DNA of 64,000 nt from Pseudofabraea citricarpa (taxonomy: Eukaryota; Ascomycota; Leotiomycetes; Helotiales; Dermateaceae): positions 248,001 through 312,000 of the forward strand of contig JAPWGK010000018.1 in the NCBI GenBank assembly GCA_029641185.1. Direction: 5' to 3'. The notes beneath the pieces were generated by a model that was not told where the DNA came from, did no database searches, and saw only the letters and a program-made list of their open reading frames with translations. The position numbers were made by a program, and so were the translations under genes. The stretch's first letter is position 1. The number at the start of each line of letters is the position of its first letter. Positions 8,675 to 28,362 of this stretch are shown here, piece after piece.

Positions 8675-8776
8675 TGGACTTGCAGGGAATCGAACCCTGG
8701 ACCATTCCCAGGAAAGACATTAGATGATTCTAATACACGATGCTAAGGGAATATTATACCACTAAACCACAAGCCC
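8675..8776 (-). tRNA. tRNA-Ala(AGC) with 30-base intron
   Basis: The minus strand folds as a full cloverleaf. The acceptor is GGGCTTG/CAAGTCC with a G3-U70 pair, the AlaRS identity signal, and discriminator A. The D-arm is GTTT-AGTGGTA-TAAT, the anticodon stem TTCCC/GGGAA and the T-arm CAGGG/CCCTG with TTCGATT. The anticodon loop is TTAGCA plus T with anticodon AGC, split after position 37 by an intron at 8711-8740, the usual eukaryotic place. The mature length is 72. Internal A box (TGGTTTAGTGG) and B box are present. The D-arm is unlike common tRNA-Ala and resembles tRNA-Gly, so the isotype is less sure than the fold. Confidence 0.85.
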
Positions 8777-27565: not shown

Positions 27566-27692
27566 GCCCTCGTAGCTCAATGGGTACGTTTCCAACATTA
27601 ACCAACTTCAAGTAACGTCCTACTAACACCCAATGCAGTAGAGCGCGTCACTAGTAATGACGAGGTTGCCGGTTCGATTCCGTCCGAGGGCA
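27566..27692 (+). tRNA. tRNA-Thr(AGT) interrupted in the D-loop
   Basis: Removing 27584-27638 leaves a clean 72-base cloverleaf. The acceptor GCCCTCG/CGAGGGC is perfect with discriminator A. The D stem is GCTC/GAGC and the anticodon stem CGTCA/TGACG with loop CTAGTAA (anticodon AGT, Thr). The T-arm is GCCGG/CCGTC with TTCGATT and one C-U mismatch. The A box TAGCTCAATGG is intact and ends exactly where the insert begins. The B box is intact too. There is no intron at the normal 37/38 site. TTTTTT at 27713 follows. The fold leaves little doubt that this is or was a tRNA gene. Whether the insert is removed is unknown. Confidence 0.85.
27584..27638 (+). other. Spliceosomal-type intron-like insert in tRNA-Thr D-loop
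   Basis: The 55-base insert starts GTACGT, has a perfect TACTAAC branch motif at about 27620-27626 and ends GCAG. These are the three signals of a fungal pre-mRNA intron, at normal fungal size and spacing. The junction can slide by one base. Normal tRNA introns lack these signals and sit after position 37. Confidence 0.7.
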
Positions 27693-27712: not shown

Positions 27713-27718
27713 TTTTTT
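27713..27718 (+). terminator. Pol III terminator of tRNA-Thr
   Basis: Run of six T, 20 bases after the tRNA 3' end. Confidence 0.7.
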
Positions 27719-28266: not shown

Positions 28267-28362
28267 GCGGCTTTAGCTCACTTGGGAGAGCGCCAGACTG
28301 AAGTCAACTTCGGATCATTACAGATTATCTGGAGGCACTGTGTTCGATCCACAGAAGCCGCA
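28267..28362 (+). tRNA. tRNA-Phe(GAA) with 23-base intron
   Basis: Acceptor GCGGCTT/AAGCCGC with discriminator A. D stem GCTC/GAGC around ACTTGGGA. Anticodon stem CCAGA/TCTGG with loop CTGAAG...A (anticodon GAA). T-arm CTGTG/CACAG with TTCGATC. The intron at 28304-28326 lies after position 37, the standard place. Mature length is 73. Confidence 0.93.

Follow-up and report, generated by a model that had tools for sequence, protein, structure and literature searches.

Introduction

Introns in nuclear tRNA genes are taught as the business of the SEN endonuclease and a ligase, acting at position 37/38. In a 2026 review, tRNA splicing is described as spliceosome-independent (PMC13149111). According to another account, ectopic and permuted tRNA introns are found in Cyanidioschyzon merolae, the Guillardia theta nucleomorph and archaea, where they lie outside 37/38 in the D, anticodon and T arms, can number several per gene, and are mostly of the bulge-helix-bulge (BHB) type recognised by the endonuclease (PMC3978253). 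With regard to non-coding RNA genes of fungi, an mRNA-type intron is present in the U6 of Schizosaccharomyces pombe, for which one source cites Tani and Ohshima 1989, 1991 (PMC10484740), and a further source cites work on spliceosomal introns in Rhodotorula hasegawae U2 snRNA and in ascomycete rDNA (PMC2586383). In a literature search of limited coverage, spliceosomal introns of tRNA genes were not among the subjects reported, which makes novelty provisional.

Here, we describe candidate introns of this kind in Pseudofabraea citricarpa, found in and beyond a 64,000-nt stretch of contig JAPWGK010000018.1 (hereafter the window). The best named protein matches of this genome are to Phlyctema vagabunda, at 70% and 85% identity, and in one search numerous further Leotiomycetes came next, which places the genome among the helotialean ascomycetes, though not necessarily in Phlyctema. 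As in S. pombe U6, GT-AG introns are present in what would be Pol III transcripts, with three in U6 here. The difference is that they also occur in tRNA genes, at about ten sites, including genes for which no uninterrupted copy was found. The R. hasegawae U2 and ascomycete rDNA introns are likewise spliceosomal introns in fungal non-coding RNA genes, but U2 snRNA and rDNA are Pol II or Pol I transcripts, unlike tRNAs. The positions outside 37/38 and the presence of several introns in one gene recall C. merolae, the G. theta nucleomorph and archaea, whereas BHB pairing at the junctions is at chance level here. Ordinary SEN 37/38 introns are found in the same genome and, in 9 of the 15 interrupted genes, would share the same precursor, but they differ in position, in length range and in the GT, branch and AG signals.

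The tRNA-Thr(AGT) gene of the window and its genomic copies

The interrupted tRNA-Thr(AGT) gene lies at 27566..27692 on the forward strand, as established by sequence reading, genome copies and folding. Exon 1 (27566..27583), which reads GCCCTCGTAGCTCAATGG, comprises the 5' strand of the acceptor, the 5' strand of the D stem and the D loop up to G19, and contains the A box (27573-27583, assigned by reading). It is followed by a spliceosomal-type intron of 55 nt (27584..27638), GTACGT...TACTAAC...GCAG, located between tRNA positions 19 and 20. Its branch motif TACTAAC is at 27621..27627, the second A of the AA (27626) being 12 nt before the intron end. Exon 2 (27639..27692) comprises the remainder of the tRNA, with the anticodon AGT at 27653-27655 and the B box at 27671-27681. 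Downstream, on the same strand, a T6 run at 27713..27718 is the probable Pol III terminator. This anatomy is that given in the earlier note, which had described a 55-nt insert with these ends and this branch motif directly 3' of the A box, both boxes intact, T6 downstream, and a tRNA-Thr(AGT) cloverleaf that forms once the insert is removed. The minimum-energy fold of the spliced 72-mer is indeed the cloverleaf, with a z of only -1.7 relative to shuffles, and its T stem exhibits one C-T mismatch pair that is common to all four genomic copies. The features expected of a nuclear tRNA-Thr(AGT) gene, namely cloverleaf, anticodon AGT, A and B boxes and T-run terminator, are all present.

The gene was missed by ARAGORN and by Rfam at the gathering score. 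When anticodon-loop introns were allowed, ARAGORN assigned this gene to Ile(AAT) and the three sister genes to Val(CAC). A home-made scanner, which excises GT...YTRAY...AG segments and then tests for a resulting tRNA, was positive in one of 728 half-overlapping 350-nt window segments (both strands), and this segment was the Thr(AGT) gene itself. Two other tRNA genes of the window, which are not part of the element, provide a contrast: the neighbouring tRNA-Phe(GAA) (28267..28362, forward strand) carries an ordinary 23-nt 37/38 intron (28304-28326) and tRNA-Ala(AGC) (8675..8776, reverse strand) an ordinary 30-nt one.

When the spliced 72-mer was used in a heuristic search of the genome, seven matches were obtained, distributed over four loci: the window gene, two on contig C34 and one on contig C28. 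At the three further loci, the exon matches are 54-55 bases apart and the inserts, of 55-56 nt, exhibit the pattern GTAAGT...(TTAAC or CTAAC)...ACAG. They follow ...GGTAGA, at a site four bases 3' of the one used in the window gene. These three genes were found by exon match alone, without any splice-site criterion, and still show GT-AG ends and a branch motif. All four located Thr(AGT) genes (4/4) are interrupted at one of the two sites; their mature sequence is identical although the introns have diverged, and neither the A box nor the B box is disrupted. This search of the 44-Mb assembly, which has 43 contigs and may be incomplete, revealed no Thr(AGT) copy without an interruption. The Thr exon-2 sequence had no exact match in either viral_contigs or genome_contigs. 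I34 of Thr(AGT) is required for ACU/ACC decoding.

The earlier note had allowed that the other Thr(AGT) copies might all be intact and that the insert might be lethal to this copy. The four located copies are all interrupted, and the second idea finds no support in four genes with identical mature parts and intact A and B boxes, nor in the run of five or more T that follows all 15 interrupted genes described below. The idea of a single dead copy was rejected in view of the three additional interrupted genes with the same mature sequence.

Survey of tRNA genes

A partial survey revealed at least 18 GT-AG introns in at least 15 tRNA genes, none of the 18 at 37/38 (positions were numbered by hand). 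Inserts of the GT...CTAAC...AG kind, which the earlier note would have sought in other tRNA genes, do recur in this partially checked genome. The survey drew on Rfam matches, B-box patterns and fetched regions, read with the scanner and by eye. The Rfam tRNA search, in which 63 of 1716 candidates were scored, gave 62 places, many of them on contig C36; this contig looks mitochondrial. The five B-box patterns covered only some T stems, and the loci read were those cut out by the search and selected others, in most of which position 60 is a pyrimidine and the stem is plausible. One such pattern gave 76 places, all listed, and replaced an earlier pattern for which 100 of 152 were listed. With 20 tRNA sequences used as bait, two matches only were obtained, both Val(AAC). 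Beside the Thr(AGT) genes, the scanner provided L143, L151, L164, L165, L192, L196 and L197 as well as L084, and reading by eye provided Ala(CGC), elongator Met and Thr(CGT).

Strong cases are provided by genes with paralogues in this genome that lack a GT-AG intron and have the same mature sequence. Lys(TTT) L192 exhibits two introns, one just 5' of the D stem and one in the variable loop, and its counterpart L195 has neither; Pro(TGG) L164 and L165 exhibit an intron at 4/5 that is not found in L186 and L166. Isoacceptor copies without a GT-AG intron also exist for Glu(TTC) (L079), Ser(GCT) (L030, L031) and Thr(CGT) (L048). Glu(TTC) L143 is interrupted in the T stem and Glu(TTC) L151 at the same T-stem site and in the D loop, while Ser(GCT) L196 and L197 are interrupted at 27/28. 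Ala(CGC) L179 has introns in the D loop and in the 3' acceptor strand. G3:U70, an alanine identity element, is regained after splicing, and a T6-T67 mismatch is kept. In Thr(CGT) L184, the intron at 33/34 splits the anticodon itself. Once it is removed, the anticodon arm is like that of Thr(AGT) and an 11-nt 37/38 intron remains, with its TACG complementary to CGTA; the SEN-type intron with this TACG-CGTA pairing exists only after removal of the GT-AG intron.

Two cases are weaker: Pro(CGG) L084, which is interrupted at 7/8 and was found in one copy only, and elongator Met L204, which is interrupted at 23/24 and exhibits a T31-T39 mismatch. A search with the spliced elongator Met, which may miss a divergent paralogue, gave a single locus, the interrupted L204, whose 5' exon was read from the sequence and was not returned by that search.

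The loci L135, L074-L076, L087, L069 and L127 were examined and lie outside the count. The three clustered genes L074-L076 (C7:82183-82682) and their relative L087 have an unusual D arm (CCAG...CTGG) together with a long variable arm, and were misparsed by ARAGORN as Asp or Gly. At L069 (C3:1287763), a 3' half resembling Arg(TCT) is preceded by a diverged, tandem-looking stretch, and no 5' half is present in the 3-kb locus. On contig C12, three Arg(TCG) genes are clustered with a single Arg(ACG) gene, and this cluster is present twice, in opposite orientation (L017, C12:2474-4090; L018, C12:113806-115422).

Splice signals and ordinary tRNA introns

The 18 tRNA introns measure 50-66 nt. All of them start with GTANGY, in line with a consensus U2-type donor, and end with AG (18/18, in part a search criterion), and CTAAY is present in 15. 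For several genes, the search itself had required GT-AG ends and a YTRAY in the 3'-terminal 40 nt, which makes these counts partly circular; the four Thr(AGT) genes, found by exon match, and the second U6 intron, placed by a covariance model, are independent of any splice-site criterion. The tight spacing of the branch site was not a search criterion: the branch A of a YTRAY lies 11-13 nt before the intron end in 16 of 18 introns, compared with a mean of 0.67 in shuffled sequences, and 16 was reached in none of 2000 shuffles. AAG, a weaker 3' site, ends five of the 18.

The introns were compared with 15 candidate mRNA introns of the window, a rough set in which some are probably false. The donor GTGAGT is absent from the tRNA introns and present in 5 of the 15 candidates, whereas CTAAY, found in most tRNA introns, occurs in only 3 of the 15. 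Neither T content (p 0.06) nor TTTT runs (p 0.16) differed significantly between the two sets.

Even apart from the GT-AG introns, the tRNA set is very rich in introns. Of the 80 distinct gene bodies that the scanner parsed, among them a few misparses such as L184 and L152 (a Ser gene read as AGT), 66 have a 37/38 intron, the longest being that of Cys(GCA) L051 with 73 nt, and 14 have none. Thr(CGT) L184 was among the 66 until it was re-read, and is the sole GT-AG gene among them. When cut after position 37, none of the 66 37/38 introns is of the GT-AG type and two have a branch site of the above spacing. Nine of the 15 interrupted genes carry an ordinary 37/38 intron as well: L084, L143, L151, L164, L165 and L192 by scanning, and L179, L204 and L184 by reading. 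The 37/38 introns of three tRNA-His(GTG) genes (L064, L133, L144), of 46-57 nt, share TTTCTTACGAA ... AAGGAT, which suggests a constrained intron structure.

RNA polymerase III signals, U6 and 5S

A run of at least five T starts within 24 nt downstream of all 15 interrupted tRNA genes, against a background of 130 in 4570 window 28-mers. CAACAA, a motif linked to Pol III starts in yeast, is found within 75 nt upstream of 11 of the 15 (background, 71 of 1706 75-mers). The introns themselves contain no T5 run (none in the 18 tRNA introns and three U6 introns), and TTTT is present in one tRNA intron. The Pol III reading is weakest for Pro(TGG) and Pro(CGG), where the intron precedes the A box and displaces it 50-66 nt downstream, a difficult arrangement for a Pol III promoter.

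The sole U6 snRNA match (L088:1466-1720; C2:955536-955687 and flanks in the genome) is below the gathering score, 47 of 2951 candidates having been scored. It is split by three introns of 55, 50 and 52 nt, GTAAG...TACTAAY...AG, one of which directly follows ACAGAGAAGA. One intron was provided by the covariance-model alignment and two more by reading. As these introns have the same look as those of the tRNA genes, the spliceosome of this fungus must already process a classic Pol III RNA. Among the 5S matches listed, by contrast, none of 40 has an intron and all are unbroken at 119-120 nt; 47 of 1980 candidates were scored, and a split 5S could score low and be missed. GT-AG introns as a general property of Pol III genes were rejected on the basis of these 40 matches.

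Origin of the introns

In a pairwise comparison of all 21 introns, the best z scores (6.2, 4.9 and 4.7) were all obtained within copies of one tRNA. Between introns of different genes, the best z was 4.1, to which the shared branch-site consensus contributes. The introner-like origin proposed in the earlier note gains no support from this comparison but may still apply: multiple recent-looking gains are a point in common with introner-like elements, no shared repeat family is apparent among the 21 introns, and clear likeness is limited to copies of the same tRNA gene. The two Thr(AGT) sites are separated by 4 nt, and the intron of elongator Met occupies the same 23/24 site. It is likely that introns were gained repeatedly, and intron sliding between the two Thr(AGT) sites could also have occurred.

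Discussion

The core of the earlier note, an mRNA-type intron within a Pol III tRNA gene, has been strengthened, as every located Thr(AGT) copy is interrupted and the same kind of intron recurs across the surveyed genes. Judging from sequence, the insert is very probably a U2-type spliceosomal intron in a functional nuclear tRNA gene. Introns of this putative type number at least 18, spread over at least 15 tRNA genes, beside the three in U6.

Ectopic introns that are removed from outside 37/38 do exist elsewhere (PMC3978253), and SEN introns are abundant in this genome, with 66 of the 80 parsed gene bodies, the later re-read L184 included. SEN might then cut out the inserts, with tRNA ligase joining the ends, in the manner known for tRNAs of red algae, nucleomorphs and archaea. 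This is very unlikely, given that pairing of the BHB type at the junctions is at chance level: one of 17 junctions, tested in one fixed register and with L184 left out, exhibits at least three central and at least three outer pairs, the mean being 1.5 of 4, and BHB-type introns were rejected on this basis. Furthermore, GT...YTAAY...AG and the 11-13 nt spacing play no role in SEN cleavage, and the 37/38 introns of the same genome do not exhibit GT-AG ends. The existence of copies without a GT-AG intron for several isoacceptors would be compatible with the interrupted copies being dead genes. Nevertheless, the four Thr(AGT) genes are all interrupted and have kept an identical mature part while their introns diverged, the only elongator-Met locus found is an interrupted one, and boxes and T runs have been kept, which makes this explanation extremely unlikely.

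Splicing is usually coupled to Pol II, and an A box pushed 50-66 nt downstream in Pro(TGG) and Pro(CGG) would be less of a difficulty if the interrupted tRNAs were read by RNA polymerase II, spliced like mRNA and then cut out. The earlier note had mentioned reading by Pol II; it is without support in genes with intact A and B boxes and a T5+ run within 24 nt of all 15 ends. Considering also the CAACAA-type leaders before 11 of the 15, the absence of T5 runs from the introns and a U6 with the same kind of introns, we regard this route as exceedingly improbable.

The preferred reading remains that of U2-type introns in working Pol III genes. From the gene anatomy, the splice signals and the identical restored tRNA, we infer that RNA polymerase III would transcribe the interrupted gene and that the spliceosome would excise the GT-AG intron from the precursor in the nucleus. 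The split arm would fold only after this removal. Trimming by RNase P and RNase Z, and SEN removal of any second intron at 37/38, would both come after the spliceosome step, because each such precursor has one of its arms (acceptor, D, T or anticodon) split.

The making of some tRNAs in Pseudofabraea citricarpa would thereby probably depend on the mRNA-splicing machinery. With good probability, as far as can be read from these genes, tRNA genes in this lineage are an open target for spliceosomal introns, which would have been gained repeatedly and at almost any position. Thr and elongator Met decoding would be spliceosome-dependent, U6 would itself be spliced, and some precursors would need the spliceosome first and SEN second.

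These genes also point to a blind spot of annotation: all four Thr(AGT) genes were labelled Ile or Val by ARAGORN, and our scanner first read the anticodon of Thr(CGT) L184 as GTA. Since tRNA finders can misname such genes, "missing" isoacceptors in annotated fungal genomes deserve re-examination. Paralogues of the same genome that differ in the presence of an intron provide material for the question of the origin of spliceosomal introns. If the proposed reading is true, the spliceosome would act widely on Pol III transcripts that are very short and uncapped, and the translation capacity of this fungus would be tied to its splicing capacity.
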